Assembly (NCBI GenBank): GCA_025360845.1
Contig: JANYBJ010000185.1
Location: forward strand, 1 to 55,664
Direction of reading: 5' to 3'
From: a bacterium
GTDB lineage: Bacteria > Verrucomicrobiota > Kiritimatiellia > RFP12 > UBA1067
DNA: 55,664 bases
A program made the translations under genes and the position numbers. Below, piece by piece: positions 8,200 to 36,705 of the stretch. The notes beneath the pieces are model-generated. The model did not search any database and was not told the origin of the DNA. It worked only from the letters and a program-made list of their open reading frames with translations. The stretch's first letter is position 1. The number at the start of each line of letters is the position of its first letter.

Positions 8200-8215
8200 A
8201 GCAATAACCATGCCG
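8200..8215 (-). promoter_or_regulatory. Sigma-54 promoter for the TPR/MshEN-like gene
   Basis: Read on the minus strand the site is CGGCATGGTTATTGCT, matching the consensus TGGCAY-N5-TTGCW at all key -24 GG and -12 GC positions (first T replaced by C). The predicted start is near 8189, and the Shine-Dalgarno and ATG (8175) follow at once. It lies back to back with the pilB promoter, 71 bases apart. Confidence 0.72.
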
Positions 8216-8286
8216 CATTGGCTTTGCGGTTTCGCCGCGCGCCGCGCCGCGCCGGGAAGGAACGGACGCCTGCAACAGGCTGGCCT

Positions 8287-8302
8287 TGGCATCTTTCCTG
8301 CT
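8287..8302 (+). promoter_or_regulatory. Sigma-54 promoter for pilB-pilC
   Basis: TGGCATCTTTCCTGCT has the -24 GG and -12 GC at the correct 10-base spacing and is followed by TTTTAAG. The ATG of pilB is 27 bases downstream, with GGAG at 8315-8318. Confidence 0.75.
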
Positions 8303-8328
8303 TTTAAGACTGACGGAGAAATAAAGTC

Positions 8329-10053
8329 ATGCCTCAGCCGGTTCACTACCAGAGTTTTCAGAACGCGTTAATCAAGCGCGGCGTATTAACCGAAAAGCAA
8401 CTGCAAGACGCCCTTTCCGAAGCGGGCAAAGTTCCGCTCGAACGTTTTCTGTTGCAGAACCGCATCGTAGCGCCCGAAGTGCTGACGCTCACGGTCGCCG
8501 CCTATTTTCACAGTTTCCCCATCGCCCTTCCTTCCTCGCTCATCCTGCCGATCGAGCTTTTGGATTTGGCGCCGGCCCAACTCTGGCTCCGCCTGAAGGC
8601 CGTCCCGCTCATGCGCCTGGGCAAGCGGCTGTGTGTGGTTTTTGGCGATCCCTTCGACCTGCTGGCGCAGGAGGAGATCGCCCGTGTCACCCGGCTGGAT
8701 ATCATCCCGTTTGTCGCTCAAGAGAACGAAGTGCTCGACGCCATTGGCCGCGCGCAGACCCGCAAAGACTCCGAGAACCCGGGTCTGGCCATGGAAAGTA
8801 TCATGAAGGTGCCGGACGCCGACATCGAGGTCTCCAGCGAAGCGCAGAACAAGGACGCGAACATTGACAGCGGCTTGGACAGCGCCGACGAGGCTCCCGT
8901 CATCCGCATGGTCAACATGATGCTGGTTGAAGCCCTCCGCACCGGCGCGAGCGACATCCACTTCGAAGCCATGGAGAAGGTTTCGCGGCTGCGTTACCGC
9001 ATCGACGGCGCGCTGATCGAACGGCCCAGCCCCCCGCGTTCCCTGCACAATGCGATCGTGTCGCGCATCAAGATCATGTCCGACCTCGACATCGCGGAGC
9101 GGCGCAACCCGCAAGACGGGCGTTTCAAGGTCAAAGCACTCAAAAAAGAGGTCGACATCCGCGTCAGTATCCTGCCGACAATCCACGGGGAGAAGGTGGT
9201 GATGCGTACCCTTGACAAGACCAACCTCGCCCCCAGCCTCGCCGCGCTGGGACTGGATGATTTCGCCTATAAGGCAATGAGGTTCGCGATCGACCAACCC
9301 CACGGCATCATCCTGGTCACCGGGCCGACCGGCTCCGGCAAAACCACCACCCTTTACTCCTGCCTGCAAGACCTGAACAAGCCGGACGTGAATATCGTCA
9401 CCGCCGAAGACCCGGTCGAATACCAACTCCACGGCATCAATCAGGTCCATGTCAACCAGCAGACGGGACTCACCTTCTCCATGGTGTTGCGTTCCGTGCT
9501 GCGTCAGGATCCCGACATCGTTCTCGTAGGCGAAATCCGCGACGGGGAGACCGCCGACATCGCGGTGAAAGCCGCGCTCACGGGCCATCTGGTGTTGAGC
9601 ACGCTCCACACCAACGACGCCTCCGGCGTGATAGCCCGTCTGATCGACATGGGCGTGCCCCCTTTCCTGCTCGCCTCCTCGCTGATCCTCGCCCAGGCCC
9701 AACGTCTCTTCCGCAAGCTCTGTCCGCTTTGCAAGAAAGCGTGCGAGATCAATCCGGAAGTCCTCATTGCAAACCACATCGACCCCCAGTTCTTCGAGGG
9801 GGCTTCCGTCTTCGAGCCGAACGGCTGCCCGAAATGTAACGGCATCGGCTATAAGGGCCGCGGCGCGGTGATGGAGGTGCTGCCCATCAGCGACGCCATC
9901 CGCAACGCGATCACCAAGGGCGCGTCTTCGTCGGCGCTCCGCGAACTCGCCGTCAGCGAAGGCATGATCACGATCAAAGACGCGGGCATGATGAAGGTCC
10001 GGAACGGCATCACCTCTCTCGGCGCCGCACTCGAAGTCACGGGCGGCGAATAA
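8329..10053 (+). CDS. pilB: Type IV pilus assembly ATPase (PilB/GspE family)
   Basis: A 574-residue cytoplasmic motor ATPase that powers pilus extension or pseudopilus assembly. The MshEN-type N-terminal domain spans about 1-145. The catalytic core carries the Walker A motif GPTGSGKTT (332-340), Asp box 'EDPVEYQ', Walker B 'DPDIVLVGEIRD' (394-405) and a His box 'STLHTND'. The tetracysteine zinc motif is CPLCKKAC (465-472) plus CPKC (500-503), diagnostic of the GspE/PilB branch against PilT. The start is supported by GGAG 10 bases upstream. pilC follows 16 bases after the stop. The gene is preceded by a sigma-54 promoter. PilB is favoured over GspE because pilM-Q and pilT are in the same locus. 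Confidence 0.95.
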   Translation: MPQPVHYQSFQNALIKRGVLTEKQLQDALSEAGKVPLERFLLQNRIVAPEVLTLTVAAYFHSFPIALPSSLILPIELLDLAPAQLWLRLKAVPLMRLGKRLCVVFGDPFDLLAQEEIARVTRLDIIPFVAQENEVLDAIGRAQTRKDSENPGLAMESIMKVPDADIEVSSEAQNKDANIDSGLDSADEAPVIRMVNMMLVEALRTGASDIHFEAMEKVSRLRYRIDGALIERPSPPRSLHNAIVSRIKIMSDLDIAERRNPQDGRFKVKALKKEVDIRVSILPTIHGEKVVMRTLDKTNLAPSLAALGLDDFAYKAMRFAIDQPHGIILVTGPTGSGKTTTLYSCLQDLNKPDVNIVTAEDPVEYQLHGINQVHVNQQTGLTFSMVLRSVLRQDPDIVLVGEIRDGETADIAVKAALTGHLVLSTLHTNDASGVIARLIDMGVPPFLLASSLILAQAQRLFRKLCPLCKKACEINPEVLIANHIDPQFFEGASVFEPNGCPKCNGIGYKGRGAVMEVLPISDAIRNAITKGASSSALRELAVSEGMITIKDAGMMKVRNGITSLGAALEVTGGE

Positions 10054-10069
10054 CCTAAACGGAGTTTTT

Positions 10070-11158
10070 ATGGCAAGTGCGACCACGCAAGTCAACACCA
10101 TCCGCGTCAGCGGTATCGGTGCGATCAAAAAGAAAGAGCTGATCCCGTTCACCCGTCAGATGGCGAGCATGCTGAACGCGGGCATGTCGATCCTTTCGGC
10201 GATCTCGACGCTGGAGGACCAATGCGCCCATCCGGGATTCCGGCTGGTCTTGAGATCTCTGCGCGATAACATCGAAAGCGGTTTGCCTTTTTCCGACGGC
10301 TTACATCAGTTCCCGAAGGTATTCGACGACATGTACGTCAACATGGTTGCTGCGGGCGAGAAGAGCGGCCAGTTTGCCGCCGTGCTCAAGCGCCTGGCTT
10401 TCATGATGGACGCCTCGGCGCGCTTGCTGCGCAAGGTCAAATCCGCCATGGCCTACCCGCTCGTCGTCCTGTCGTTGGCCTTAATCATCGCGGCTGGCCT
10501 CGTCACTTTTGTGGTGCCCGTCTTTAAAGACATGTTCGAAGGTTTCGGCGCCCAGTTGCCCGGCCCCACCCAGGCCTTGGTGACCGCCAGCGATTTCATC
10601 CGGAAACAGTGGTACTATGTGATCGGCGGCATCGCTGTCGTCATCTTCGGTTTCCGTAAATGGCTCGCTTCAGCGGAGGGAAGGTATAAGTTCGACCAGC
10701 TCCTGCTCAAGCTGCCGGTTTTCGGCGACCTGACGCAAAAAGTGGCCGTAGCCCGCTTCTGCCGTCTCTTCGCGCAGATGCTTTCCAGCGGCGTGCCGAT
10801 CCTGGACGCGATGTTGGTCGTCGCGAAGTCCATGGGCAACAAGGTGATCGAATCGTCCATCCTGTCGGCCCGCTCCGGCATTGAACAGGGCAACACCCTC
10901 AGCTCCTCGCTGGAAGGCAAGCCCAGTCTGCCGCTTCTGATGATCCGCATGATCGCGGCGGGCGAAAAGAGCGGGCGTATCGACGAGATGCTCGAAAGCA
11001 TCGCCGACACCTACGACGACGAGGTGGAGACCACGCTGGCCACGCTGACCTCTCTGATGGAACCCTTTCTGATGGTCTTCCTCGGCGTGGTCATCGGCGG
11101 CATCGTGATCGCCATGTTCCTCCCCATCTTCAAACTCGGCACGGTCATCAGCGGATAA
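10070..11158 (+). CDS. pilC: Type IV pilus inner-membrane platform protein (PilC/GspF)
   Basis: A 362-residue polytopic inner-membrane protein on which the pilus ATPases act. It has two tandem T2SSF domains (about 27-150 and 230-350), each with the family signature (FTRQMASMLNAGMSI...; VARFCRLFAQMLSSGVPI...) and the 'NMVAAGEKSGQF' / 'MIAAGEKSGRI' motifs. Hydrophobic helices lie at about 128-150, 182-196 and 325-352. The N-terminal ~20 residues before the first domain are short compared with many PilC proteins. GGAG sits 5 bases before the ATG, and the gene is almost certainly cotranscribed with pilB. Confidence 0.94.
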   Translation: MASATTQVNTIRVSGIGAIKKKELIPFTRQMASMLNAGMSILSAISTLEDQCAHPGFRLVLRSLRDNIESGLPFSDGLHQFPKVFDDMYVNMVAAGEKSGQFAAVLKRLAFMMDASARLLRKVKSAMAYPLVVLSLALIIAAGLVTFVVPVFKDMFEGFGAQLPGPTQALVTASDFIRKQWYYVIGGIAVVIFGFRKWLASAEGRYKFDQLLLKLPVFGDLTQKVAVARFCRLFAQMLSSGVPILDAMLVVAKSMGNKVIESSILSARSGIEQGNTLSSSLEGKPSLPLLMIRMIAAGEKSGRIDEMLESIADTYDDEVETTLATLTSLMEPFLMVFLGVVIGGIVIAMFLPIFKLGTVISG

Positions 11159-11290: not shown

Positions 11291-12682
11291 ATGGCTAAAA
11301 TCCTGATAGTTGACGACGAGGCGCGCATCCTGCTCCTGCTTCAGAGCCTTTTGAAGGCGAACGGTTACGAGACGTCCACGGCTAAGGACGGCGCAGATGC
11401 TCTCCAGCTTGCGAAAAAGAACCCCTTTGATCTGGTCATCACCGATCTGCGCATGGCCCCCATGGACGGCATGACGCTGTTCCGCGAGCTGAAGACGCTC
11501 TATCCCGCCATGCCGGTGATTCTGCTCACGGCCTACGCCTCGGTCGAAACCGCCATCGAGGCCATGAAGAGCGGCGCGTTCGACTACCTCACCAAGCCGT
11601 TCAAAGTCGACGAGATGCTCGCCACGGTCAAACGCGCGCTCGACAACGTCAAGAACAGCGCCGCAGCCGCAGTCGCGACCGATCCCAACGCGCCGCTGCG
11701 TTACCAGTTCGAGAACCTCATCGCCTCCAACAGCGCCATGATGCAGGTCTGCGAAATGATCCAGCGCGTGGCGCCAACCGCCGCCACCGTCCTCATCAAC
11801 GGCGAGAGCGGCACCGGCAAAGAGGTCATCGCCCGAACGATCCACAACACCAGCCCGCGCAAAGACAAGCCGTGGGTGGCCGTGAACTGCGCCGCGCTGC
11901 CGGAACCGCTGCTCGAATCCGAGATGTTCGGCCATGTCAAAGGCGCCTTCACCGGCGCGGTGGTGGAAAAGGAGGGCCTGTTCGAAACCGCCAACAACGG
12001 CACGCTTTTCCTCGATGAGATCTCCTCGCTCCCCCTCGTGCTCCAAGGTAAACTCCTGCGCGTCTTGCAGGAGAAGGAAATCCGCCGCGTCGGCGGCACC
12101 AAGAACATCCCGATCAACGTTCGAGTCATCGTCGCCAGCAACACCAACCTCGAACAACTGGTGGTTCAAGGCAGCTTCCGCGCCGACCTTTACTACCGTT
12201 TCGCCGTCATCACGCTCGACATTCCGCCGCTGCGCGACCGTATCGAAGACATTCTGCCGCTCGCTCGCCATTTTATCCGCATCGAGAGTGCGGGCTTTAA
12301 GACCCAGCCGACGCTCTCGCAAGAGGCGGTCGATGTGCTGGTGTCCTACCGCTGGCCAGGCAACGTGCGCGAATTGGAGAACGCCATCAAACATGCGGTG
12401 ACCTTTCTGCAGGAAGACACCATCACGCCCGACCTCCTGCCCTCGCGGATCGTCAGCCGCGCCAGTGAGGCGAAAGCCCAGCAGGCCGTCCAGCCTTCAG
12501 CGCCAGGCAGCAACACCTCGCTCAAAGGCTTTCTCAAGCTGAAAGAGAAGGAGTACCTGGATCAGATCCTCTCCTCCACAAACGGCGACAAGGAAAAAGC
12601 CGCGCAAACCCTTCAGGTCAGCCTGGCCACCCTCTACCGCAAACTGTCGGACGAAGAGGTTCCGCCGGCCCCGCAAAGGTGA
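11291..12682 (+). CDS. Sigma-54-dependent response regulator (NtrC/PilR type)
   Basis: A 463-residue transcription activator. The receiver domain (1-120) has the acidic pair D8/D9, phospho-acceptor D52 and K102. The AAA+ core has Walker A GESGTGKE (171-178), the sigma-54-contacting GAFTGA loop (218-223), Walker B 'GTLFLDEIS' and arginine fingers in 'FRADLYYRF'. A Fis-type helix-turn-helix ends the protein (KEKAAQTLQVSLATLYRKL). The presence of GAFTGA means it should activate sigma-54 promoters, and at least eight lie within 30 kb, all in the pilus locus, so a PilR-like role is likely. Its cognate kinase is not obvious. The upstream gap (11159-11290) holds a perfect palindrome GTTTCCGGAAAC at 11160-11171. 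Confidence 0.92.
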   Translation: MAKILIVDDEARILLLLQSLLKANGYETSTAKDGADALQLAKKNPFDLVITDLRMAPMDGMTLFRELKTLYPAMPVILLTAYASVETAIEAMKSGAFDYLTKPFKVDEMLATVKRALDNVKNSAAAAVATDPNAPLRYQFENLIASNSAMMQVCEMIQRVAPTAATVLINGESGTGKEVIARTIHNTSPRKDKPWVAVNCAALPEPLLESEMFGHVKGAFTGAVVEKEGLFETANNGTLFLDEISSLPLVLQGKLLRVLQEKEIRRVGGTKNIPINVRVIVASNTNLEQLVVQGSFRADLYYRFAVITLDIPPLRDRIEDILPLARHFIRIESAGFKTQPTLSQEAVDVLVSYRWPGNVRELENAIKHAVTFLQEDTITPDLLPSRIVSRASEAKAQQAVQPSAPGSNTSLKGFLKLKEKEYLDQILSSTNGDKEKAAQTLQVSLATLYRKLSDEEVPPAPQR

Positions 12683-12843: not shown

Positions 12844-12859
12844 TGGCACGCCGTCTGCT
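12844..12859 (+). promoter_or_regulatory. Sigma-54 promoter for pilin gene 1
   Basis: TGGCACGCCGTCTGCT matches the -24/-12 consensus except for C in place of the first T of TTGC. It lies 71 bases before the pilin ATG. About 140 bases upstream (12692-12704) is TGTCTCTTTTGCA, resembling a half of the palindromic repeats at 18528 and 22074. Confidence 0.8.
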
Positions 12860-12930
12860 TTATCAAATTCAACAGTGGGACCGACAGAGATGCCGGAAAA
12901 CACAATAAAACGAGAGAAAAGGAATTCATC

Positions 12931-13272: not shown

Positions 13273-13299
13273 TCGCTGCAGTCCAGATTGTTGAAAAAC

Positions 13300-13771: not shown

Positions 13772-13787
13772 TGGCACGCCGTATGCT
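13772..13787 (+). promoter_or_regulatory. Sigma-54 promoter for pilin gene 3
   Basis: TGGCACGCCGTATGCT differs from the pilin 1 promoter by one base. The 90-base leader down to the ATG is also recognisably duplicated (GGACCGACNGNGATGCCGG and AAACGAGAGAA blocks). Confidence 0.8.
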
Positions 13788-13853
13788 TTAAAATATCGTT
13801 AGCAGGACCGACTGGGATGCCGGTAATCATATAAACGAGAGAAGGAGTTTATC

Positions 13854-14276: not shown

Positions 14277-16343
14277 TCACTGTGCCGGCTGGTAAAACCA
14301 ATACGCGAACGCGACATGGTCGCCGTAGAGCGTCAGACGTGTAGCCGCTTGCCGGATCTTTTCGGCCGGCAAGGTGAGCTGGATCTCCGAGAAAGCCGTC
14401 TCGTTCGTCGAAAGCGGCAGCGCGAACACACCGACCTCGGCCCCATCCACATGGACCCTCAGTTTCAGCGGGGAATCGAAGGTGAACATTTTTTTCATCT
14501 GAAGGGCCCCTATGCGCATCTCCGTCTCGGCTTTAGCTGCGGTGCGCAACACGACTCGCACCGGGCGACCGGGGCGCAGGCGGACCGTCATGTTGTCGCA
14601 CCCAAGAACCACCCTCCCGACCTCAAACACGTCGTTAGTTCCCTCCCCGCCGGCAAGTCCGAAAGGCTCGTATTCCGCGCGGTGAAAGCGGCTGTAGGAC
14701 GTATACTCACACCTCTTCTCATCTTCGGGATAACCCACGTCCAGCCGGTCCGTCAAGCGCCAGCCCTCCTGCGCCAAACGCCCGCTGTCGGCTGGCAGGA
14801 GCGCGCGGTCAAATCCGTCCCACCGCGCGCGGCGCATGTTCGATCCGTCCACGCCCAAAACCTCGATGGGGCCGCACAAGGCCCCGATCTTCGTATTCGC
14901 GAACATCACCTGTTCGGACGACAAAGACCAATAGTCGAAGCGCCACTCGGGATGATGCTTCACGCGCTCCAGATTGAGCACGGGGGCAAAGGTAAGCAGG
15001 TCCGGAGAATAGAGACCCGAGAGGTGTACCAGGCGGTGTCCCGGCAACCCGTACGCGGGACGGGCGGACTCGTCTCCCACACGCGCGCCTGCGGGAAGCT
15101 GGGCATGCGCATCTTTCGCATAATCGTATTTCTGCTGACTGATCAGGCAGGCGGTCTCGTAGGCCGTGACCAGCCACACCGCGCTGACGGCCTGAAAAAC
15201 CGCCACAGCCAAAAAGGGAAACACGCGGCACGCGCGCCGTGGAAAACGCCGGCCCGCCCACACGGCGCCTTCGGCCGTGTAAACCAGCCAGATCGGCAAG
15301 AGCCACGCCAAATAGCGGTCCATGTTCAAGTCCTGCCACCCGCTCGACGCCACCACGCCCAGCGCCGCCACGCTTGCGGCCAGCCACCACACCTCTTTCC
15401 ACGACCCTTCTCTCTTCCACGAGCGCGCCATCACCCCTAGCCACGCGAACAGCGCGCCCAGCAAAGGCATAAAGTAGCACGAGCGCGGCAGGTCGGACGG
15501 CAGACCCAGAAACAGCTCCCGCCCCATCCGCACCGCGTCACCGAGCGTCAAGTTGACGGCCGCGAAAAACCCGTAATTGATAAAGTATCCCTTGCAGTAT
15601 ACCGATTGAAACTGCGCATACCCCGTAAGCCCGTAATTGAACGCGAACACGCCGACTGTAGAGAGTGCCGCCAGCGCCGCCGCCGCCCACTCCATACGGG
15701 AAACCCGTTGCCGCAACGCCATCCGACGGACCACCAGCGCACCCGCAAAAAGAACGGCGAACACACCCCCCTCTGGCCTGCACCACGGCGCCAGCACCAG
15801 CAACGCCGCCAACCATTCGATCCGTCCGGCCAAGAGGGCCGCAAAAACACCGGAACTCACGGCCATGAACAGCCCCACATCCGATTGGGACAATGCGCAA
15901 TACACCGCATGCCCGTTCAAAACGAGCAGTGCGCACGCCGCGTTTTTCACCCGAGGAGAAGTTGCGAGACGGCACACGATCAAGCCCCAATTCGCCAGGA
16001 ACATGAGGTAGAACAACGCGTTTAAGACAAATCCGGCCGTCAATAACGCATCCCCGGTCGCGCCGGCCTTGTATAAGGCGGCCAGCAAAAAAGGATACAG
16101 GTGCGACGTGCTGCCCGTCGACGGCTTGTCCCCCGGCGTGTAAATATAGGGCATCCCCTCTGCAATCTGCCTCGCCGACTGACAGTAGAGCAACGTGTCA
16201 GGCTGTGGCACAGCCACATGGCTGTCCGGGCTGGCCCACGTCCCCACAAAGTAATAAGCGGCGATTTGCAGCACGCCACAGGCCAGCATGATCTTGATGC
16301 GTCCGCCTGTTGAAAAAGAAAACCATCGGTCCATGAATGTCAT
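14277..16343 (-). CDS. Polytopic membrane protein, probable GT-C-type glycosyltransferase
   Basis: A 688-residue protein. Residues 15-400 contain about 9-11 hydrophobic helices; the C-terminal ~290 residues are soluble and beta-rich. The first large loop has the pattern of GT-C transferases, which use lipid-linked sugars outside the inner membrane: QPDTLLYCQSARQIAEGMPYI, then 'STSHLYPFLLAALY'. Another acidic/charged loop, 'APWCRPEGGVF', follows. No specific family is certain. It is the last gene of a three-gene minus-strand unit driven by a sigma-54 promoter, and it faces the pilin genes, so pilin or surface glycosylation is an attractive inference. Only 3 bases separate its start from the upstream gene's stop. 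Confidence 0.6.
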   Translation of the reverse strand: MTFMDRWFSFSTGGRIKIMLACGVLQIAAYYFVGTWASPDSHVAVPQPDTLLYCQSARQIAEGMPYIYTPGDKPSTGSTSHLYPFLLAALYKAGATGDALLTAGFVLNALFYLMFLANWGLIVCRLATSPRVKNAACALLVLNGHAVYCALSQSDVGLFMAVSSGVFAALLAGRIEWLAALLVLAPWCRPEGGVFAVLFAGALVVRRMALRQRVSRMEWAAAALAALSTVGVFAFNYGLTGYAQFQSVYCKGYFINYGFFAAVNLTLGDAVRMGRELFLGLPSDLPRSCYFMPLLGALFAWLGVMARSWKREGSWKEVWWLAASVAALGVVASSGWQDLNMDRYLAWLLPIWLVYTAEGAVWAGRRFPRRACRVFPFLAVAVFQAVSAVWLVTAYETACLISQQKYDYAKDAHAQLPAGARVGDESARPAYGLPGHRLVHLSGLYSPDLLTFAPVLNLERVKHHPEWRFDYWSLSSEQVMFANTKIGALCGPIEVLGVDGSNMRRARWDGFDRALLPADSGRLAQEGWRLTDRLDVGYPEDEKRCEYTSYSRFHRAEYEPFGLAGGEGTNDVFEVGRVVLGCDNMTVRLRPGRPVRVVLRTAAKAETEMRIGALQMKKMFTFDSPLKLRVHVDGAEVGVFALPLSTNETAFSEIQLTLPAEKIRQAATRLTLYGDHVAFAYWFYQPAQ

Positions 16344-16346
16344 CCC

Positions 16347-17627
16347 CTACCGGTACGAGTCGGCGATCAGGCCGGCGTCCGGCGTGAAGGTCTCGGGCAA
16401 CCCCGAGATACGGTTCATATACGCCACCAACTGATTCACCCGCTGCACGCTCTCATTCGCCATTTTCAGCAGATCGTTCTGAGATTCGGTCAGCGTTCCG
16501 GCAAGCCCTGAACTGAGCATGCCGATCACCCCGGTGGAGACCGTCAGCGGCTGCACGATCTCTTGGTTGAGCTCGGCATACCGCTTAATCAAATCGCCGC
16601 GGGTCAGCTTCAAGCCGATGCCCCGCCGCCGCGCCGCCGCCTCGATGCTGGCGATGGTCAGGCTGTCTTCGTCCAACTCACTCGCCAAATCCGTGATGCG
16701 GGTTTCCGAGCCGACCGTCATCCGGGTCATCAGGCCGCGGACTTTTTCAAGAGCGGTCAACACGGCCTGGTTCGTGACGACAGACGAGGCCGTGGCTTTC
16801 CCACCTTCCAGCAACGTAGCGGTCTCGCGCAAGAGCGAGGCCAGCGACGAAACCTGCTCTTGGCGCTCCGATCCCTGCTGGCTCCGCACCGCGCCATCTG
16901 GTTGCCGGGCTTCTCGGCTCACCTGCTCTTCGGCCCATTCGCTCCCGGAGAACGCGGCGGAAAGATCCAACACCACCGAACCGGTGCCGGGCCTTCTCGC
17001 GGCCCGCCGCTGGGTGGCGTCAGAATCAGGCTGCGAGAGAACCTGTCCGGAGGCGGGGGGGCGCGGGGAGGCGTCAGGCGCAGGCTGCGGAGGGACCGGT
17101 CCGTAGACCGGGAGGGGGGCGGGCACGTCAGGCGAAGACTGCGGAGGGACCGGTTCGGAGACCGGGGGTTGCGGCACGTTCGCGAGCACACGCTGGTAGA
17201 CTGAAGTGACCACACGCACATTACGCAGCCCCAGCTTTTTCAACGCCGCCTCGAAGCCGCCCGCCTCGGCCAACGCCTGCGGCGCTGTCCCGAACAGGGT
17301 GATGCACTCCGAAAACTCTCCCAGTTCGAGCGGCGCCTGAAACAGGAGACCGCCGATCTTATGCAGTCGCATGCGGTCGGAAAGATTCTTCCCCGTCGAC
17401 ACGTCGAGCCCGTCGCTGTAGCCGTTCACCAGCACCTGCGCGTCTTTCAGGGCAATCTCGACCCAACCGTAGGTTTTGACCACCTTTTCCACTTCGGTGA
17501 AAACGCTGCGCAGGGTCAGCCGGGTCACGTTGTGCGAGGCTCCGTAGACACCCGCCTGATTGACCAGCAGACCCAAAACCCGGATGAGCGACATCGCCTC
17601 TTTCTCTGGAATCTTAGCGTATGCCAT
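16347..17627 (-). CDS. Protein with degenerate histidine-kinase DHp domain and Pro-rich linker
   Basis: A 426-residue cytoplasmic protein. The N-terminal 145 residues (ALIRVLGLLVNQAGVYGASHNVT-type helix) form an unrecognised domain. Residues 150-200 are Pro-rich with a repeated PVPPQxxPD unit, encoded by a 57-base tandem repeat (near 17072 and 17129). The C-terminus (348-410) strongly resembles a HisKA dimerisation helix pair: AELNQEIVQPLTVSTGVIGML, 'GLAGTLTESQNDLL', 'ESVQRVNQLVAYM'. Gln355 stands where the phospho-acceptor His belongs, and no ATPase domain follows. It cannot be a normal kinase. It may be a dimerisation or scaffold partner of the adjacent 17690-18427 product. A run of seven C lies just 5' of the ATG. 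Confidence 0.62.
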   Translation of the reverse strand: MAYAKIPEKEAMSLIRVLGLLVNQAGVYGASHNVTRLTLRSVFTEVEKVVKTYGWVEIALKDAQVLVNGYSDGLDVSTGKNLSDRMRLHKIGGLLFQAPLELGEFSECITLFGTAPQALAEAGGFEAALKKLGLRNVRVVTSVYQRVLANVPQPPVSEPVPPQSSPDVPAPLPVYGPVPPQPAPDASPRPPASGQVLSQPDSDATQRRAARRPGTGSVVLDLSAAFSGSEWAEEQVSREARQPDGAVRSQQGSERQEQVSSLASLLRETATLLEGGKATASSVVTNQAVLTALEKVRGLMTRMTVGSETRITDLASELDEDSLTIASIEAAARRRGIGLKLTRGDLIKRYAELNQEIVQPLTVSTGVIGMLSSGLAGTLTESQNDLLKMANESVQRVNQLVAYMNRISGLPETFTPDAGLIADSYR

Positions 17628-17689: not shown

Positions 17690-18427
17690 TCAGGCGCCCG
17701 CGACACGCCGTTCATCCTCCCGGTCCTCCAAGCGCAAGATCACCTTGGAATCGGCATGGGAGGGCAGGTACGGTTCAGCCGCGTAAAGTCTTTTGGCGTT
17801 CATTTTCTTCAACAGGTCGCGCAACTGGATAACGGCGCCGTAACACAGCTCGATGATCTCGCTCCGCGTCTTATCGTCCGTCAGCCCTTCCAACTTCAAG
17901 ATCTCGATGCTGGTCAGCAGGACGGTGGCCGGCTGCCCCAGCGCGTGGCACGCCCCGGCCAGACTTTCCATCATGATCCGGTTGCGCTCCACCTGATACT
18001 CGGCGATCTCCGCCCGCCAACGCTCCGACGTGTCGCGTATGGAAAACACCAGTCCGCACAGTTCGTTCGCAATGTTGAGGTCCGGCACCGCGGAGACCAA
18101 CAGCCACTTGGAACGATCACTCGAGAGCATCCGTTGCTCACCCGACCAGCCCAAGCCTTGGCGAATGTTATTCAGCATCGGCTCGAAAACGTGCTCCCGG
18201 TCAAACCACGTTTCAAGATGTTTCCCGATAACCTCAGACTCCTCCCCTCGGGCAAGCAGTTCGGTCATCATGCGGTTGGCGTAGGTGACTTTGCCGTCCA
18301 TGTCGGCGATGCCGATACCGGAGTCGGCATGGTCCATGGCGTGGTATGTGGAAAGCAGCTTCTCCTCGGCACACCTCTGCTGCGGGATGTCGCTCTTGAT
18401 GGCTCTCGCTTTGTCGTTCACGTTCAT
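17690..18427 (-). CDS. PAS protein with DHp-like domain but no kinase ATPase domain
   Basis: A 245-residue cytoplasmic protein. A PAS domain occupies about 25-135 (DHADSGIGIADMDGKVTYAN..., 'GLVFSIRDTSERW'). Residues 140-210 look like a HisKA-type helical hairpin, ESLAGACHALGQPATVLLTS, in which H161 is kept in the 'HxLGQPxT' context. The protein ends soon after, so there is no catalytic domain. It could accept phosphate from another kinase (histidine phosphotransferase-like) or act purely as a sensor-scaffold. It is the first gene of the minus-strand sigma-54 unit; the next gene starts 63 bases downstream. Confidence 0.72.
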   Translation of the reverse strand: MNVNDKARAIKSDIPQQRCAEEKLLSTYHAMDHADSGIGIADMDGKVTYANRMMTELLARGEESEVIGKHLETWFDREHVFEPMLNNIRQGLGWSGEQRMLSSDRSKWLLVSAVPDLNIANELCGLVFSIRDTSERWRAEIAEYQVERNRIMMESLAGACHALGQPATVLLTSIEILKLEGLTDDKTRSEIIELCYGAVIQLRDLLKKMNAKRLYAAEPYLPSHADSKVILRLEDREDERRVAGA

Positions 18428-18446
18428 GTCGCTTTCGTTAACAATA

Positions 18447-18462
18447 AGCAGAATTCATGCCG
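18447..18462 (-). promoter_or_regulatory. Sigma-54 promoter for the PAS-DHp/GT-C operon
   Basis: Read on the minus strand the site is CGGCATGAATTCTGCT: -24 GG and -12 GC with correct spacing. The predicted start near 18436 leaves a leader of only about 9 bases before the ATG at 18427. Confidence 0.68.
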
Positions 18463-18527: not shown

Positions 18528-18569
18528 CTTTTTTTCTCTCTTATGCAAATGCGCGTTGCAAAAACGAGA
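18528..18569. promoter_or_regulatory. Palindromic repeat, candidate activator site (copy 1)
   Basis: This 42-base block (C, seven T, CTCTCTTATGCAAAT, five variable bases, TTGCAA-N-AACGAGA) is almost identical to 22074-22116. The halves CTCTC..TT..GCAA and TTGC..AA.GAGA form an imperfect inverted repeat. It lies 66 bases upstream of the sigma-54 site at 18447-18462, the usual position for an enhancer-binding protein. Confidence 0.5.
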
Positions 18570-22185: not shown

Positions 22186-22194
22186 TTAACCTCT

Positions 22195-23846: not shown

Positions 23847-24472
23847 AAGTCGATCAAAACCTTCTTAGAAAGATCGCGCCTTCCATGAAGCGATCGATCA
23901 TGATCACGGTTGTCGCCATTGTCGTGACGGCCGCTTTGTTCTTTCTGGCCGTATTGCCGTCGCGCAAGCGCATCCAGGCGATCCGGGTTGAGATTGCCAG
24001 CCTGAACGACACGATCGCCAAAACCCAGTCGGAAATCGCCGGCACCGAACAGCAAAAAAACAGAACATCCGCTGCCACCGCCAAACTCGACACGCTGACC
24101 GCCACCGGCGTGATCGAGCCGCTTTTGGGGTCCTTCGCCATGCGGGGCAAAAACCTTCTCGCACCTCTGGCACAGGAAACCGGGTTCACCATCGACAGCG
24201 TCAGGGAACTCGCCCCACTCCCCCTCCAGGTGCCCAAGCCCGTTCCCGAACAGCTCTACGCCCGGCAGCCGATCGAGTTCACCGGGCACGGATCATACGA
24301 CCAGATCACCGCCTTCATCACACAGGTTGAAGCCGCCCATACCTTGACGACCCTCTCTGGCCTGCTCATTTTAAGTCAGCCTCTAAAACCTGAAACGCAT
24401 CTGGCGCAGATCACGTTCGAGTGGCCGACCAAAGGTGAAAAACGAGTCCCTCCAGCAAAACCCGGCAAATAA
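23843..24472 (+). CDS. pilO: PilO-like inner-membrane assembly protein
   Basis: A 209-residue bitopic protein. A basic tail, then one TM helix (about 18-38, IMITVVAIVVTAALFFLAVL), a coiled coil (RKRIQAIRVEIASLNDTIAKTQSEI) and a periplasmic ferredoxin-like region (GFTIDSVRELAPLPL; EFTGHGSYDQITAFITQVEAAH; THLAQITFEW), as in PilO/GspM. I chose the GTG at 23843: AAGGAGG lies 5 bases upstream and it overlaps the pilN stop (GTGA). An in-frame ATG at 23822 is also open. Confidence 0.8.
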   Translation: MKVDQNLLRKIAPSMKRSIMITVVAIVVTAALFFLAVLPSRKRIQAIRVEIASLNDTIAKTQSEIAGTEQQKNRTSAATAKLDTLTATGVIEPLLGSFAMRGKNLLAPLAQETGFTIDSVRELAPLPLQVPKPVPEQLYARQPIEFTGHGSYDQITAFITQVEAAHTLTTLSGLLILSQPLKPETHLAQITFEWPTKGEKRVPPAKPGK

Positions 24473-24487
24473 CCCCCTGACCTTGCC

Positions 24488-24940
24488 ATGAAAACACGTC
24501 ACGTCTTCTTCGCACCCCTTCTGTTCGGCATATTCGCCGCGCTTCCGGCCGTTGCCGCGCGTGACCCGTTCTGGCCCATCGGCTACGAACCGCCGAAACC
24601 TGAGCCGGCCGCGGCCGCGGGCGAACCGGTTGTCAAAAACACAGAGCCGCCCCCCCCCCCGAAACCCGTGGAGAAAGCGATCACCGAGGCTGACTGGGCC
24701 GTTGCCCGAAAAGCACTGGTCATCAGCGGGTTTACCCAAACGGTCATGCCCGATACCCAGGAGAAGCGCGTCCTTGCGATGGTCAATCGGCACATGGTCG
24801 CTGTCGGCGACACCGTCACGTTTGACCATAAGGACGTACGCTACATTTGGCGTGTCGAAAGCATGACCGACAACCGCATTCAACTGGAGCCGCTTAAAGC
24901 GGAACGCGTAGCCTTAAAACCGACCGATCTCATTCAATAA
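24488..24940 (+). CDS. PilP-like periplasmic protein with C11 tract
   Basis: A 150-residue protein. A signal peptide (1-22, ends AVA-A) is followed by RDPFWPIGYEPP, the 'RDPF' motif often seen at the start of PilP/GspC-like proteins, a Pro/Ala linker, and a small beta domain (ALVISGFTQTVMPDTQEKRVLAMVNRHMVAVGDTVTF...YIWRVESMTDNRIQLEPL) that matches the PilP/HR fold. It would connect PilNO to the secretin. The linker is encoded by eleven consecutive C (24650-24660); slippage there would frameshift the protein. Located 15 bases after pilO and 44 bases before pilQ. Confidence 0.68.
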   Translation: MKTRHVFFAPLLFGIFAALPAVAARDPFWPIGYEPPKPEPAAAAGEPVVKNTEPPPPPKPVEKAITEADWAVARKALVISGFTQTVMPDTQEKRVLAMVNRHMVAVGDTVTFDHKDVRYIWRVESMTDNRIQLEPLKAERVALKPTDLIQ

Positions 24941-24984
24941 AACGAACCTTTCTTGACCAGTCAAACCCCAACCAGGAGCCCAAG

Positions 24985-26871
24985 ATGAAAACCCTCCCCC
25001 TCGTCTGTTCATTCGCTTCCGTCGCCCTGATGTCAGCGACAACGATGCGGACGTTTGCCCAAGTCGAAGCACCTGTGAAACCGGTGATTGCCATCGAAGC
25101 GCCACGGCCTGCACAGCCGGCTGTCATCCAACCGGTCTCGGCACCCGCATCGGTGAAACCGGTGATTGCCATCGAAGCGCCACAATCTGCACAGCCGATT
25201 CCGGCACCCGCACCTATCGTCCGCATCGTCGACTCGGCCAACGGCAGCGAGCCGGTGGTCTCCATGGTGTTCGACGAGACCCCCATCTCGGACGTCATCA
25301 AGGCGTTCCGTGACGCGACCGGCGCCAATATCATCTCGGGCGGCACCAATCTCCAAGGACTTGTCAGCGTCAGGCTCGAAAAGGTGCCGTGGCGCAAGGG
25401 GCTCTCTTCCATTCTCGATCCGCAGGGTCTTCAGTTGCTGGAGCAGCCCGTAGGTTCAGGCATCTACGTGGTCATCTCCAAAACCTTCGATATCCCGAAA
25501 GTCACCCGGACCTTTGAACTCGACTTCGCCAAGGCCACCGATGTCGCGAAACTGTTCACCTCAACCTTGGGGAACTTCGGCTCCGCCACGGCTTTCGGTT
25601 CGGCCAACGTCGTGATCGTCACCGCCTCCGAACAGCAGCTTAACGAGTGCGAAAAAATCGTCAAATCTATCGACAAGCAACGTTCACAAGTCTATATCGA
25701 AGCCCGATTCGTCGAACTGTCCGCTGCCGCCAGCAGGAAACTCGGCCTTAAGTGGGATGCTTTCGGCGGTGACGGCGTGGGCGTGAACTTCGACGGTGCC
25801 TCGCTGGGCTTTAAAGACGATATGGCCAACGGCAATGTTAAAAAGAACGGGAACACCAGCTCCTCCAGCTCCTCCCAAAACTCCACCCTGCAAGACAACG
25901 TCAACAACGCCACTCACGACATCATCAGCGACCTCACGACCGAGACCGTTCTCGGCAGCGGAACCACCCACAGTTACGACTCGACGAAGACTCACAACAA
26001 TTCACGCGCGTTCACGGGCTCAATGTCCATTGACAATTTCAGCATGGCGATTAACGCGTTCGAGCAGATGGACGGCGTCTCCGTCTTCTCCAACCCCAAG
26101 ATCATTGTCGCAAACGAAGAGACCGCGATGGTCGACATGACCACAAAAGAGCCGAACATCACCGTCCGTTCATCCCGCAGCGGCACTAGCGGCGACCAGT
26201 TGGACATCACCACGGAACTCGCCATCATCCCCGGAAAAGCCGAACCCTTTGTGGGAGAGGCGTTTTTCAGTTACGGCATCAGCCTCAAGGTCACGCCGCG
26301 CATCAGTCCGTCCGGCCTGATCACGGTGGACATTATGCCGTCGATCAGCGAGCGCCAAGGCTATTTGGAAATCAGCGGTGTCAGCGCGACGACCCCGGTC
26401 GCTAAATACCCGATCATCAACATGCGCCGCATCCAGACCGTTTTCACCATGGAGAGCGGCAAGACCGCCGTCATCGGCGGACTGTCAAAAACCACCGAGT
26501 CCAGCATCGACTCGGGCCTTCCGTTCCTGCGCGAACTGCCGTGGATCGGCCCGCGTCTCTTCGGCTGGAAGAGCCGCGAGAAGGGCCAAAAGGAAATCGT
26601 CATTTTCGTCACCGTGGGGATCGCCGATCCAACCGCTCTTAAGGAGGATGTCGGCATGCCTAAGAACGCCGTCCTCAGCCGCGATCTCATGGCTGGCAAG
26701 ACCAAAGAGCCCGGCGACCAGACCCGCGAGGAGCTCATGAGTATCAAAGATCCGCAAAGCCCCAGAGCAAACCACGACAAGGTTGTGACCGAACGGGAAG
26801 CCGGAGAGGTCACTCCAGTCGCCGTCGAGGCTCCGGTCGACGTGGTCGTGCCGCCGACGACCACCAATTAA
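24985..26871 (+). CDS. pilQ: Secretin (PilQ/GspD family)
   Basis: A 628-residue outer-membrane channel. Signal peptide 1-26. The N-terminal linker has a duplicated unit VKPVIAIEAP (DNA repeat at 25075 and 25153, period 78). The STN/N0 domain spans about 88-165 (SMVFDETPISDVIKAFRDATGANIISGG), the N1 domain 170-235 (VTRTFELDFAKATDVAKLF), and the secretin core 235-550 has a Ser/Asn-rich insertion (NTSSSSSSQNSTLQD). The C-terminal signature is 'VFTMESGKTAVIGGLSKTTESS...GLPFLRELPWIGPRLFG'. A 75-residue acidic tail follows. AMIN domains are absent. CAGGAG lies 8 bases before the ATG. Confidence 0.93.
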   Translation: MKTLPLVCSFASVALMSATTMRTFAQVEAPVKPVIAIEAPRPAQPAVIQPVSAPASVKPVIAIEAPQSAQPIPAPAPIVRIVDSANGSEPVVSMVFDETPISDVIKAFRDATGANIISGGTNLQGLVSVRLEKVPWRKGLSSILDPQGLQLLEQPVGSGIYVVISKTFDIPKVTRTFELDFAKATDVAKLFTSTLGNFGSATAFGSANVVIVTASEQQLNECEKIVKSIDKQRSQVYIEARFVELSAAASRKLGLKWDAFGGDGVGVNFDGASLGFKDDMANGNVKKNGNTSSSSSSQNSTLQDNVNNATHDIISDLTTETVLGSGTTHSYDSTKTHNNSRAFTGSMSIDNFSMAINAFEQMDGVSVFSNPKIIVANEETAMVDMTTKEPNITVRSSRSGTSGDQLDITTELAIIPGKAEPFVGEAFFSYGISLKVTPRISPSGLITVDIMPSISERQGYLEISGVSATTPVAKYPIINMRRIQTVFTMESGKTAVIGGLSKTTESSIDSGLPFLRELPWIGPRLFGWKSREKGQKEIVIFVTVGIADPTALKEDVGMPKNAVLSRDLMAGKTKEPGDQTREELMSIKDPQSPRANHDKVVTEREAGEVTPVAVEAPVDVVVPPTTTN

Positions 26872-33704: not shown

Positions 33705-33731
33705 GCCTTATCTAAGCCGGAGAACTTTACT

Positions 33732-35207
33732 ATGGCCGCCATTGACCGTCTCCTTCGACCGCTGGTTGCGGGAGAAGGCAGTGACTTGCATCTTTACGCG
33801 GGCCGTCCCCCCTACATGCGCATCCATGGCGTCATCAGCCCTGTCGCCGGCGAGCCTTCGCTTGCCAGCGATGATGTTTTCGAACTCATCAAAGAGATCA
33901 TGCCCGAAGAAAACATCGCGCAGCTCGAGAGCGAATGGGATACCGACTGCGCCTATGAAATCCGCGGCACGGCGCGTTTCCGCGTCAACGGGTTCCGCGA
34001 CATGTCCGGTTACGGGTCGGTCATGCGTGTCATTCCCGAGCGCATCCCGACCTTCGATGAACTCAACCTGCCGGATATCATGCATGAATTCTGCATGCTT
34101 TCGAAAGGACTCGTCGTCGTGACAGGGCCAACCGGCAGCGGCAAATCCACCACGCTCGCCGCTCTGGTCAATTACATCAACCAGAACCGCAACGAGCATC
34201 TGATCACCATCGAAGACCCGATCGAATTCGTTCACACGCCAAACAGGTGTATCATCAACCAGCGCGAGGTTCACCGCGACACCAAAAGTTTCGCACGCGC
34301 CCTGCGTGCCGCGTTGCGCGAGGATCCTGACATTGTGCTTGTCGGCGAAATCCGCGACCTTGAAACCATGGAGATCGCGATCGAGACGGCCGAGACGGGC
34401 CATCTGGTTTTCGCCACGCTCCACACGAACACCGCAGCCTCCACCGTGGAACGCATGGTCGACAAGTTTCCGGCCAATCGGCAGAATCAGGTCCGTTCCA
34501 TGTTGGCGGACACGCTCAAGGGAGTGGTCGCCCAAACGCTCTGCAAAAAGACCGAGGGCGGACGCATCGCGGCCTTCGAGGTTCTGGTCGTCACGACGGC
34601 GGTGGCGTCCCTCATTCGCGACTCGAAAACCCACATGATCCCATCGGTCATGCAGACGGGCAAAAACGCGGGTATGCAGACCTTCGGCGATGAACTGACG
34701 CGTCTGGCCGCCAAGGGCATCATCTCGGCCGAGGACGCTTACATCAAAGCCGTGGATAAAGCGGACATCGAAACCAAATTCGTGCTTGCGGGATTAAGTC
34801 TCGACTTCAAGAAGAAGGCCGAGGAGGCCATGCGGCAGGCGCGTATGGCCAAAGCCAAGGACACACTGCAACTGGCTCGCGAGGCACTGATCTGCGATCC
34901 GAACAACATCCAGGCGCTCTGTAACGCGGCATGGATACAAGCCGCTTCTCCCTATAGTGAACTGCGCGACGGCAAAGAGTCTCTTAAGCTGGCTGAAAAG
35001 GCCTGTTCGCTGCTGCACGACAAAGACCCGCATGCGCTGGCGGTGCTCGGGGTTGCGCATGCCGAGAACGGTTCGTTCCGCCGAGCGCTCGACGCCACAC
35101 GTCGAGCCGCCGCGCTCTACACTCAGACGGGGGACAACGTCAAGGCGAATGCCCTGAAGAGCCGTCTGTCGCTGTTCGAACTGAACAAGCCCTATCGCGA
35201 CGAATAA
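33732..35207 (+). CDS. pilT: Pilus retraction ATPase PilT with C-terminal TPR extension
   Basis: A 491-residue protein. Residues 1-350 are a standard PilT: 'GEGSDLHLYAGRPPYMRIHG', Walker A GPTGSGKS (132-139), Asp box 'EDPIEF', Walker B 'DPDIVLVGEIRD' (198-209), His box 'ATLHTNTAAST', and the AIRNLIRE-like region replaced by VASLIRDSKTHMIPSVMQTG. There is no zinc motif, which separates it from PilB. Residues 355-490 are extra helices with TPR spacing (AKDTLQLAREALICDPNNIQALCNAAW; DPHALAVLGVAHAENGSFRRALDATRRAAALY). Usual PilT length is 345-370, so this is a fusion. CCGGAG lies 9 bases before the ATG. Confidence 0.92.
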   Translation: MAAIDRLLRPLVAGEGSDLHLYAGRPPYMRIHGVISPVAGEPSLASDDVFELIKEIMPEENIAQLESEWDTDCAYEIRGTARFRVNGFRDMSGYGSVMRVIPERIPTFDELNLPDIMHEFCMLSKGLVVVTGPTGSGKSTTLAALVNYINQNRNEHLITIEDPIEFVHTPNRCIINQREVHRDTKSFARALRAALREDPDIVLVGEIRDLETMEIAIETAETGHLVFATLHTNTAASTVERMVDKFPANRQNQVRSMLADTLKGVVAQTLCKKTEGGRIAAFEVLVVTTAVASLIRDSKTHMIPSVMQTGKNAGMQTFGDELTRLAAKGIISAEDAYIKAVDKADIETKFVLAGLSLDFKKKAEEAMRQARMAKAKDTLQLAREALICDPNNIQALCNAAWIQAASPYSELRDGKESLKLAEKACSLLHDKDPHALAVLGVAHAENGSFRRALDATRRAAALYTQTGDNVKANALKSRLSLFELNKPYRDE

Positions 35208-35288
35208 GAAGGCCGGACGCCAAATCAAATATGCCGACGGACTCGGCTCCTGTGCCCGCAGGTCTCTCCTTCTGTCTTCCGGTTCGTC

Positions 35289-36608
35289 CTACATCTGCAG
35301 GATCGACCCTGCAACAGAAGTGACGTTTTGTCCACTCTGTACCGGCATCAACGCCAGTTGGAGTTTGATCGGCACACCGCCCGGCGTCGGCACGCGCAGC
35401 GTCTCGCGCAGTTTCTCGCCGCAGGACGCACGCAAGAACAGACGCGCCGCATCGGGCAGGAGGTCCATAAAGCGCACCCCTTTCGCCTGATCCTCGTCCG
35501 GTATTCCGAACGCGTCGAGCATGGCTTGGTTTACAACCAAAAAGAACCCGTCGGTGTCACAAACGAACGATGGTGCCAACGAGATATTCAAGGCGGCGTG
35601 GCTCCTGCGTAATTCATCCATCGCACTCTTGCGCCGCTCCACGTTACGCAGCGTAAAGACCAAGTTGGTGCCGCGCGTCAAGGAGAGCGTGCTGACCCCA
35701 ACCTCTCCCGAAAACGACGTCCCGTCCTGTCGGAAACAACGCGCATCGATCAAGATGTGATGGTTATCCGCCAAGCTGCGTTTGAGATGCTCGAACATCT
35801 GATTCGACATGCCGGTGATCACTTTATCAATCGGCAAGTCCCACGCATCCTCACGCGAATACCCCAACATCTCCGTGACCCGCGAATTACAGTCCACAAC
35901 ATGTCCCTGATCGTCAAGGATCAGCACCGCGTCATACAACCCGTTCATCAACTGGTAATAGAGTGCCCGCTGATCCACTTTCGGACGGACCGCCACATCG
36001 TCGGCATTCCGCTCAATTGCGCTTTTCTCCGCCACCGGAGAAGGAGACCCCGCATCCTCCCTCGGACGCAAACCATAAGCCTGGCGGCCGGCCCCAAGTC
36101 CCGTCAGGGGCGCGGCAGCGGCGGTATCGCCCGTCGGACGCGCCGACATCCGCAGCGGACTGCCCACCGGCTTGAGCACCGCTTTCTGAACCTCGGACGG
36201 TCCCGTCGCACCTCCAGCAGCAGTTCCAGCTACAACCGTTACGCCAGCCTCGTCCGCAACACCCGCAATCGGTTTAACCAAAATAGTCGAAACCTCAGCC
36301 TGCGCGTCCGGCATCGTGAAAGGAGCCTGAGCCGACGACGGCTGCACCCCCTGCTCACCACCCTCTGAATCAGAAGACGACCGTGTCCTCTGTTGCACAA
36401 CCCCAACCGTAAAAACCTGCTGAGGCGCGAGCACCTTTTGTTCCGCCACGGTCTCAGTTCGCTGCGGCTCAACATATAAAGGTGTCGGAGCAGATAACGA
36501 CGCAACGCCGTTTTTTGAGGAGTCGGGCATCGTTAAAACATCACAGGATGCACCTGCGGCCCCGTCCTGCTCTGCCTCTTTTTTCCCAAACCAGAATTTC
36601 ATCGCCAT
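35289..36608 (-). CDS. Double-PAS protein without output domain
   Basis: A 439-residue cytoplasmic protein. Residues 1-205 are low complexity (Ala/Pro/Gln/Ser-rich) and probably disordered. PAS-1 spans about 213-325 (LMNGLYDAVLILDDQGHVVDCNSRVTEMLG...GYSREDAW) and PAS-2 about 330-437 (PSFVCDTDGFFLVVNQAMLDAFGIPDED). No kinase, cyclase or DNA-binding domain follows. The ATG at 36608 has AGGAA upstream and a strong sigma-54 promoter. It is convergent with pilT and divergent from the HU/zinc-ribbon gene. It may signal by protein contact, for example to a kinase-like partner. That is inference. Confidence 0.75.
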   Translation of the reverse strand: MAMKFWFGKKEAEQDGAAGASCDVLTMPDSSKNGVASLSAPTPLYVEPQRTETVAEQKVLAPQQVFTVGVVQQRTRSSSDSEGGEQGVQPSSAQAPFTMPDAQAEVSTILVKPIAGVADEAGVTVVAGTAAGGATGPSEVQKAVLKPVGSPLRMSARPTGDTAAAAPLTGLGAGRQAYGLRPREDAGSPSPVAEKSAIERNADDVAVRPKVDQRALYYQLMNGLYDAVLILDDQGHVVDCNSRVTEMLGYSREDAWDLPIDKVITGMSNQMFEHLKRSLADNHHILIDARCFRQDGTSFSGEVGVSTLSLTRGTNLVFTLRNVERRKSAMDELRRSHAALNISLAPSFVCDTDGFFLVVNQAMLDAFGIPDEDQAKGVRFMDLLPDAARLFLRASCGEKLRETLRVPTPGGVPIKLQLALMPVQSGQNVTSVAGSILQM

Positions 36609-36644
36609 GGTTCAATTCCTAATCATAAGATCGTTAGACAGAAA

Positions 36645-36660
36645 AGCAAATTCGATGCCA
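36645..36660 (-). promoter_or_regulatory. Sigma-54 promoter for the double-PAS gene
   Basis: Minus-strand TGGCATCGAATTTGCT is a full match to TGGCAY-N5-TTGCW. Predicted start near 36634; ATG at 36608. The companion plus-strand promoter begins 30 bases away. Confidence 0.82.
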
Positions 36661-36689
36661 AAGCCAAAAAGCACGCATTAATCAAAAAG

Positions 36690-36705
36690 TGGCATGTTAG
36701 TTGCT
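36690..36705 (+). promoter_or_regulatory. Sigma-54 promoter for the HU/zinc-ribbon gene
   Basis: TGGCATGTTAGTTGCT is a full match to the -24/-12 consensus, followed by TTTTAAGC as at the pilB promoter. The ATG is 40 bases downstream. Confidence 0.82.

Follow-up and report, generated by a model that had tools for sequence, protein, structure and literature searches.

A predicted sigma-54 regulon across the pilus locus of a Kiritimatiellia bacterium, with regulatory genes among its likely members

The stretch of DNA analysed here (the window) is the 55,664-nucleotide contig JANYBJ010000185.1 of a Kiritimatiellia bacterium, one contig of the 5.17-Mb assembly GCA_025360845.1, which is 92% complete and consists of 326 contigs. 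The window carries a type IV pilus locus with eight elements of the -24/-12 type, and our reading, to which we assign a probability of roughly 0.8, is that these are sigma-54 promoters through which an activator of the NtrC type, probably the PilR-like one of the locus itself, would jointly switch on the pilus machinery and its regulators. This reading is supported because the elements recur before the same genes in relatives, because their density elsewhere in the genome is low, and because rpoN is present; the locus-wide regulon reaching non-structural genes, which a preliminary description of the window had proposed, is upheld on these three grounds.

Promoter-like elements in the pilus locus and their density

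All eight elements were found exactly where, and on the strands on which, the preliminary description had placed them. In each of the eight, GG and GC stand 10 bp apart in a TGGCAY/TTGCW-like context, and the common pattern is YGGCAY-N6-TGCTTW. The first predicted promoter, CGGCATGGTTATTGCTTA (8198..8215, minus strand), lies ahead of a TPR/MshEN gene (tpr) and is divergent from TGGCATCTTTCCTGCTTT (8287..8304, plus strand), which lies ahead of pilB. Two more plus-strand elements, TGGCACGCCGTCTGCTTT (12844..12861) and TGGCACGCCGTATGCTTT (13772..13789), precede the pilin genes at 12931-13272 (pilA1) and 13854-14195, respectively. The predicted promoter CGGCATGAATTCTGCTTA (18445..18462, minus strand) stands ahead of a gene for a PAS protein with a DHp-like segment (the PAS sensor) and the minus-strand genes that follow it, while TGGCATAATAAATGCTTT (22170..22187, plus strand) heads pilM and its following genes. 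Lastly, TGGCATCGAATTTGCTTT (36643..36660, minus strand) precedes a double-PAS gene, and TGGCATGTTAGTTGCTTT (36690..36707, plus strand), 29 bp from this divergent neighbor, precedes the gene of an HU/zinc-ribbon protein (HU-Zn). Proximity to start codons, which had also been claimed, was confirmed by eye, the distance from the C of the -12 part to the start codon being 25 nucleotides for tpr, 27 for pilB, 72 for pilA1, 67 for pilA3, 20 for the PAS sensor, 37 for the double-PAS gene, 40 for HU-Zn, and 10 or 13 for pilM, which has two in-frame ATGs. It is to be noted that the elements at 12844 and 13772 represent a single promoter in two copies and are hence not independent, since the pilin gene was duplicated in tandem together with its promoter region (12914-13213 versus 13837-14136, 84% identity over 300 nucleotides, 923 bp apart). 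A weaker ninth site proposed at 18888 on the plus strand scored 6.0, which is background level, and was given up.

The density of such elements was compared between the locus and the rest of the genome. Across the 5.17-Mb genome, the shared pattern is matched 18 times, against 5 times for a reversed control, and 8 of the 18 fall inside 28.5 kb of the pilus locus. With up to one mismatch, the window contains 9 matches, compared with a mean of 1.6 in shuffled sequence, and none of 100 shuffles reached 9. By weighted score, the density elsewhere in the genome was indeed far below that of the locus: at a score of at least 7.8, 31 kb here held 8 sites, whereas a 397-kb sample of the genome held 3; with the cut-off lowered to 7.0, the numbers were 8 and 8. 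The ten matches outside the locus give an expectation of 0.06 per 31 kb, a figure that overstates the case, as the pattern was taken from the sites themselves. In general, both the pattern and the weights were derived after the window sites had been seen, and the fairer test lies in other genomes. The classical consensus TGGCAYRN4TTGCW, allowed two mismatches, was in mild excess in the window (32 versus a shuffle mean of 22.4, with 4 of 100 shuffles reaching 32). An enrichment test based on open reading frames (3/23 in the window versus 3/252 in the background, Fisher P 0.009) was not used, being mis-specified: in the window, the greedy frame caller had picked antisense or over-extended frames, so that the true starts of five genes (tpr, pilB, pilA1, sensor and pilM) escaped it.

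Four of the ten outside matches stand ahead of a plausible start codon, and the other six lie within open frames of 70-763 residues. The four genes encode a Clp-type ATPase, an NADP-glutamate dehydrogenase, a protein that is probably secreted and, close to the gene of another activator, an unknown protein. The site at the dehydrogenase gene (L088 1501-1518; G000:C171:7320), which is overlapped by an 85-residue frame, places the extended element at a nitrogen gene outside the pilus locus.

Recurrence of the elements in related genomes

Relatives of PilB were drawn from assemblies of Kiritimatiellae, Lentisphaerae, Verrucomicrobia and others; the assemblies are incomplete, gene starts were set by tblastn or by eye, and the scoring weights are ad hoc. 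With the weights fixed on the window, each homologue was scored over the 300 bp that precede its start, and a score of at least 7.0 was counted as a site. In the first set, comprising 37 loci found through PilB (not de-duplicated, and some near-identical), sites were present at 14/19 pilA, 10/33 pilB, 3/24 tpr and both pilM genes (2/2), as well as at 2/33 pilC, 1/23 pilR, 1/6 hybrid kinase and 1/1 pilO genes, and at none of the hkfrag (0/3), pilN (0/2), pilP (0/5), pilQ (0/1) and GT-C-like (0/1) genes. As controls, the reversed motif reached the cut-off once, at pilC, and the background rate was 47 of 3730 blocks (1.26%). The second set, from which our own loci and upstream duplicates were removed and in which only matches starting within query residue 25 were kept, gave 22/24 for pilM, 15/24 for HU-Zn, 3/3 for double-PAS, 1/1 for pilA and 1/24 for pilO, with no site at pilN (0/27), pilP (0/5), pilB (0/1), tpr (0/1), pilT (0/2) or pilR (0/3); the reversed motif scored zero at every gene. 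A third set of 12 stretches, partly repeating genomes of the second, had sites at all pilM (8/8), HU-Zn (7/7), pilA (4/4) and double-PAS (3/3) genes, at 2/3 pilB, 2/3 tpr, 1/3 pilC and 1/8 pilO genes, and none at pilN (0/8), pilP (0/5), pilQ (0/2), pilT (0/7), pilR (0/3), hkfrag (0/3) or NIPSNAP (0/1).

The automatic counts for the sensor were 0/6, 0/7 and 0/4 in the three sets, which is uninformative because the sensor N-terminus is longer in the relatives than in the query. When read by eye, sensor sites scoring 6.5-8.8 were found at L134, L135, L136, L138, L140, L149, L150, L155 and L161, and the assignments to double-PAS at L134, L135, L136 and L138, along with some of the short double-PAS distances, turned out to be mis-matches to the PAS sensor. 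The sensor site also has a counterpart at 14202-14219 of L183, in a genome of the same genus (G008). In a sister species, seven counterparts were scored, namely tpr 6.5, pilB 7.2, pilA 8.3, sensor 7.8, pilM 8.3, double-PAS 7.5 and HU-Zn 7.7; the site at 13772, being tied to the pilin duplication of the window, falls outside these seven. Conservation of the sites in related genomes, a check that the preliminary description had proposed, is strong for pilM, HU-Zn and pilA and moderate for pilB, whereas for tpr it holds mainly among near relatives (3 of 24 loci).

Alignments that did not require the motif were in agreement. They comprised 12 HU-Zn and 17 pilM upstream regions, hand-picked mostly among loci with sites. 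The columns conserved at 90% or above were TGGCA-N7-TGC (on both strands at HU-Zn/double-PAS), the ATG of HU-Zn together with a few coding positions, and, in the pilM alignment, GGCA and TGCT. In three whole genomes of relatives, 12 of 49 matches to TGGCAY-N6-TGCTW lay inside pilus loci, where 0.28 were expected; this form was loosened after sites in relatives had been seen, making the result supportive rather than blind.

The presence of pilR was also considered as a correlate of the sites, but the association was not clean. Loci L053-L057, at least two of them from the rumen, fit, as they lack both a full-length match to pilR in the neighborhood of pilB and any site of at least 7.0 (L054 has a 26% partial match and L057 is short); L059, L061, L073 and L079, which have a pilR match and no such site, do not.

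The pilM elements recur at a near-constant distance from the gene. For sigma-54 promoters, +1 is counted here as the twelfth nucleotide past the C of the -12 part. The first in-frame pilM ATG is found 7-16 nucleotides past this C in 22 of 27 distinct loci (window included), and one further locus has GTG at 14, which puts the pilM start at about +2 to +5 in most loci. The pilM mRNA is thus predicted from this geometry to begin a few nucleotides before the start codon and to be near-leaderless. The sensor genes of several relatives begin at 11-16 nucleotides (20 in the window). At HU-Zn and pilA, and at pilB in most cases, the site is far enough from the gene for a leader of normal length. Read from the pilM start codon so placed, the peptide MKLQLTK.KTI is conserved, with synonymous changes, in one group of genera. 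If the prediction is true, sigma-54 transcripts with almost no leader recur across genera. Leaderless transcripts as such have been described for Sinorhizobium meliloti (171 of them) and Chlamydia pneumoniae (5 of them), with no tie to sigma-54 made in the passages concerned (PMC3616915, PMC3333780). A separate observation is the motif TI[KR]I[DE] in HU-Zn (37354) and in sensor N-termini (L183 14258, L185 16508, L186 11161), with a similar string at the pilM N-termini of one group and a single match in 373,285 background residues; a shared docking peptide is possible.

Gene content, regulators and promoter architecture

The locus begins with a hybrid kinase gene (4614-7301, plus strand) and tpr (7321..8175, minus; MshEN E 3e-9, TPR under cut-off), followed on the plus strand by pilB (8329..10053), pilC (10070..11158), the PilR-like activator gene (11291..12682) and three pilin-like genes. 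On the minus strand are a membrane-type gene (14277..16343) without a family match in Pfam or NCBIfam, earlier labelled "GT-C-like", a gene with a weak HisKA match (16347..17627) and the PAS sensor gene (17690..18427). Minor pilin-like genes follow on the plus strand (the corrected start of a pilX-like gene is 19932), and then pilM-N-O-P-Q (22198..26871), where pilQ has a secretin domain, pilM and pilO have weak matches, and pilN and pilP were named by position. Next come the gene of a 2251-residue repeat protein (26949-33704) and pilT (33732..35207; above the NCBIfam cut-off), both on the plus strand, the double-PAS gene (35289..36608, minus) and HU-Zn (36745..37668, plus), the start of which is 36745 and not 36694, the start of the longest open reading frame. 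The 2251-residue protein has seven divergent InlB B-repeat matches, and its gene lies between pilQ and pilT, likely as part of the pilM operon. L183 and L185 each have a relative of it at the equivalent place, and in L186 no relative was found. Farther along the window, 40371-43307 encodes a Peptidase C10-type protein with Spi-inhibitor and carboxypeptidase-regulatory-like domains, and 44168-46942 a DUF2961 protein with F5/8 type C domains.

The genes not expected in a pilus regulon may be interpreted as regulators plus an HU protein of IHF-like character. MshEN domains, as seen in tpr, bind cyclic di-GMP in other proteins. The activator has a receiver, a sigma-54 AAA+ domain and a Fis-type helix-turn-helix, and the GAFTGA motif ascribed to it earlier was seen in its translation. 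Its PilR name was given by position, next to the pilin gene at 12931; among the 25 of 123 NCBIfam matches listed, none was above cut-off (AtoC 454 versus 714 bits), and identity with PrsR was rejected (PEP_resp_reg 383.8 versus a cut-off of 502.6 bits). No PilS kinase was recognised beside it, its neighbors being pilC and the pilin genes; one has to go as far as the hybrid kinase to meet a full kinase. In the PAS sensor, the H-box pattern HxLxxPxT is retained (CHALGQPAT), and no ATPase domain was found by Pfam at E <= 0.1; by eye, the H-box is also kept in six relatives, three of which are only ~122-125 residues long. In the weak-HisKA protein, no ATPase domain was found either, and its translation is without a histidine at the H-box place. 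HU-Zn has an HU domain (PF00216, E 1.5e-13) with RNPQTG fitting the RNPxTG arm; at 307 residues, with two CxxC zinc-ribbon-like segments and scores below the NCBIfam HU and IHF cut-offs, it is not a stand-alone HU/IHF of ~90 residues. The HU/zinc-ribbon family comprises 209 proteins at E <= 0.001, and among the 120 listed, the named relatives are mostly HU-family, several from Kiritimatiellia or Kiritimatiellae. Presence of rpoN in the genome was looked up and confirmed (box RRTIAKYR); as it occurs in 88/95 genomes of the order, and in 44/44 of those with a completeness of 90% or more and no more than 5% contamination, it is nearly universal and was uninformative as a discriminator between genomes.

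Upstream of two of the promoters lies a candidate enhancer. A 34-bp element is found at 18536..18569, with the dyad TGCAAATGCGCGTTGCA (18544-18560), as candidate enhancer of the sensor promoter, and at 22082..22115, with the dyad TGCAAATATGTTTTGCA (22090-22106), as that of the pilM promoter; at up to 3 mismatches, these are its only two copies in the genome. The 17-bp dyad TGCAA-N7-TTGCA was the most recurrent perfect 5-bp dyad among 115 upstream regions, occurring in 9. The next unrelated dyad occurred in 4, and TGCAA/TTGCA with any other spacer from 0 to 15 in no more than 1. The nine regions hold 7 distinct dyads from six genomes and five genera (L133/window, L134, L135, L136, L137, L151), located 69-189 bp upstream of the -24 element at sensor and pilM promoters and, in one relative, at a pilA. 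At 17 bp, the dyad is similar in size to NtrC sites.

Three promoter pairs are divergent: tpr/pilB, double-PAS/HU-Zn and sensor/pilM. Between the -24 elements of double-PAS/HU-Zn there are 29 bp in the window and 15-30 bp in ten relatives. For tpr/pilB the gap is 71 bp in the window but only 5 bp in G086 and G069, of one genus, in which two polymerases would therefore exclude each other. The back-to-back elements (L187 7478-7518, L188 12697-12737) form a near-palindrome across the 5-bp gap, on which polymerases would collide. The sensor and pilM genes are directly divergent in relatives, and in G008 the dyad lies between their promoters; in the window, the promoters are 3.7 kb apart, separated by a segment of ~3.5 kb with the minor pilin-like genes and with a copy of the 34-bp element on either side. 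These flanking copies suggest that an ancestral sensor/pilM control region was split by insertion and partly duplicated. In G008, pilin-like open reading frames lie downstream of the sensor, on the same strand.

The mechanism may be pictured as follows. The sigma-54 polymerase would wait at each element as a closed complex, and the activator would bind upstream, at least at sensor/pilM, through the TGCAA-N7-TTGCA dyad. HU-Zn, itself a predicted member of the regulon, could bend the DNA, a role that IHF has at many sigma-54 promoters. The ATPase-less protein with the phospho-acceptor H-box might hand on phosphate to the activator, with the hybrid kinase (4614-7301) as its possible source; the hybrid kinase, the H-box protein and the PilR-like receiver would then make up a plausible relay. 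The pilM mRNA would be translated without a Shine-Dalgarno leader. A more tentative, and on balance doubtful, extension is that almost the whole type IV pilus of Kiritimatiellota forms one self-contained sigma-54 module, in which back-to-back polymerase sites, a dedicated zinc-ribbon HU that belongs to the module and takes the role of IHF, an ATPase-less phosphotransfer protein likewise under its control and leaderless pilM and sensor mRNAs are combined.

Alternative readings and comparison with known systems

Several results weigh against a single regulon of sigma-54 promoters. The classical TGGCAYRN4TTGCW with up to one mismatch shows no genome-wide excess (128 versus 122 in the control), and the TGGCAY-N6-TGCTW totals of the three relatives are little above control (18/14, 12/12 and 19/10; 49 versus 36). 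Sites of at least 7.0 are missing at 9/24 HU-Zn, 23/33 pilB and 21/24 tpr loci, and at the four pilR-bearing loci named above. The dyad is found at 2 of the 8 window promoters and absent from the others, and it is not enriched genome-wide (6 sites versus 11 in the control); it is for these reasons a candidate lead for one activator, and not proof of a single regulon. Finally, seven good sigma-54 activator domains exist in the genome, leaving the PilR-like protein only a candidate regulator.

The last two points also favor the strongest rival reading, in which the promoters are real but answer to several activators, e.g., PilR at pilA and sensor/pilM and another at tpr/pilB and HU-Zn/double-PAS, with no single regulon; the dyad, confined to sensor/pilM and one pilA, would follow such a division. 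We regard this as possible but unlikely, considering that the activator gene lies within the locus and adjoins pilA, that the extended element is common to all promoters, and that genes of enhancer-binding proteins are often near their targets, as stated in the part of the literature consulted (PMC2725144). The elements could alternatively be conserved sites of another DNA-binding protein and not sigma-54 promoters, and the near-palindrome that two of them form in one genus, with 5 bp between their -24 parts, would favor this; it is very improbable in view of the GG-N10-GC spacing in its TGGCAY/TGC context, the start codons downstream, the presence of rpoN and activators, and the pilM start at a near-constant distance past the -12 C. 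That the cluster is due to chance, or to a motif chosen after the sites were seen, is scarcely credible: two of the eight sites are indeed copies of one promoter, the classical consensus lacks a genome-wide excess and the ninth site is background, but recurrence at the same genes elsewhere, as scored with weights set beforehand on the window and set against reversed controls of 0 or 1, speaks against it, the counts for pilM, pilA, pilB and HU-Zn doing so already.

The reading of a joint sigma-54 regulon would mean that a whole surface machine is under activator-dependent, all-or-none control, in a group on which little regulatory work exists; deletion of one activator should then remove the pilus, its sensors and the candidate DNA bender together, and the HU/zinc-ribbon family would gain a likely context. 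No report of sigma-54 control of pili in Kiritimatiellota was found among the titles and abstract openings listed from the open-licence literature. The preliminary description had stated that PilR/sigma-54 usually drives only pilA in proteobacteria, which goes somewhat too far. In the portions of the sources consulted, this applies to Pseudomonas, where pilA was the single known PilR target before 2018, and does not extend to Geobacter and Dichelobacter, for which wider sets were predicted (PMC6058289), or to Xanthomonas oryzae, where RpoN2/PilRX acts on pilA and pilC (PMC8657755). Relative to known PilR control, what is likely new here, judging from the predicted promoters, is the widening from pilA to most of the pilus locus.

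As in Geobacter sulfurreducens and Pseudomonas aeruginosa, an NtrC-type regulator gene lies by pilA and a -24/-12 promoter at pilA, according to the sections consulted (PMC2725144, PMC6058289); unlike there, predicted promoters also head pilB-C-R, pilM-Q, the sensors and the HU protein, and a PilS gene was not recognised beside the activator. Control of a pilus assembly gene besides pilA is shared with RpoN2/PilRX of X. oryzae (pilC in that case), while the text consulted names neither pilM-Q nor an HU protein nor PAS genes among the targets (PMC8657755). The PrsR-type PEP-CTERM system resembles the present one in having, in the part consulted, a conserved upstream motif with -24/-12 elements at many genes and an NtrC-type regulator (PMC1569441); its targets differ, and the activator described here falls under the PEP_resp_reg cut-off. 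Lastly, IHF at RpoN promoters of Geobacter is likewise of the HU/IHF family, a DNA bender needed for PilA as far as the consulted text goes (PMC7962754), whereas HU-Zn is a 307-residue protein with zinc-ribbon-like segments and predicted DNA binding, whose own gene belongs to the predicted regulon.

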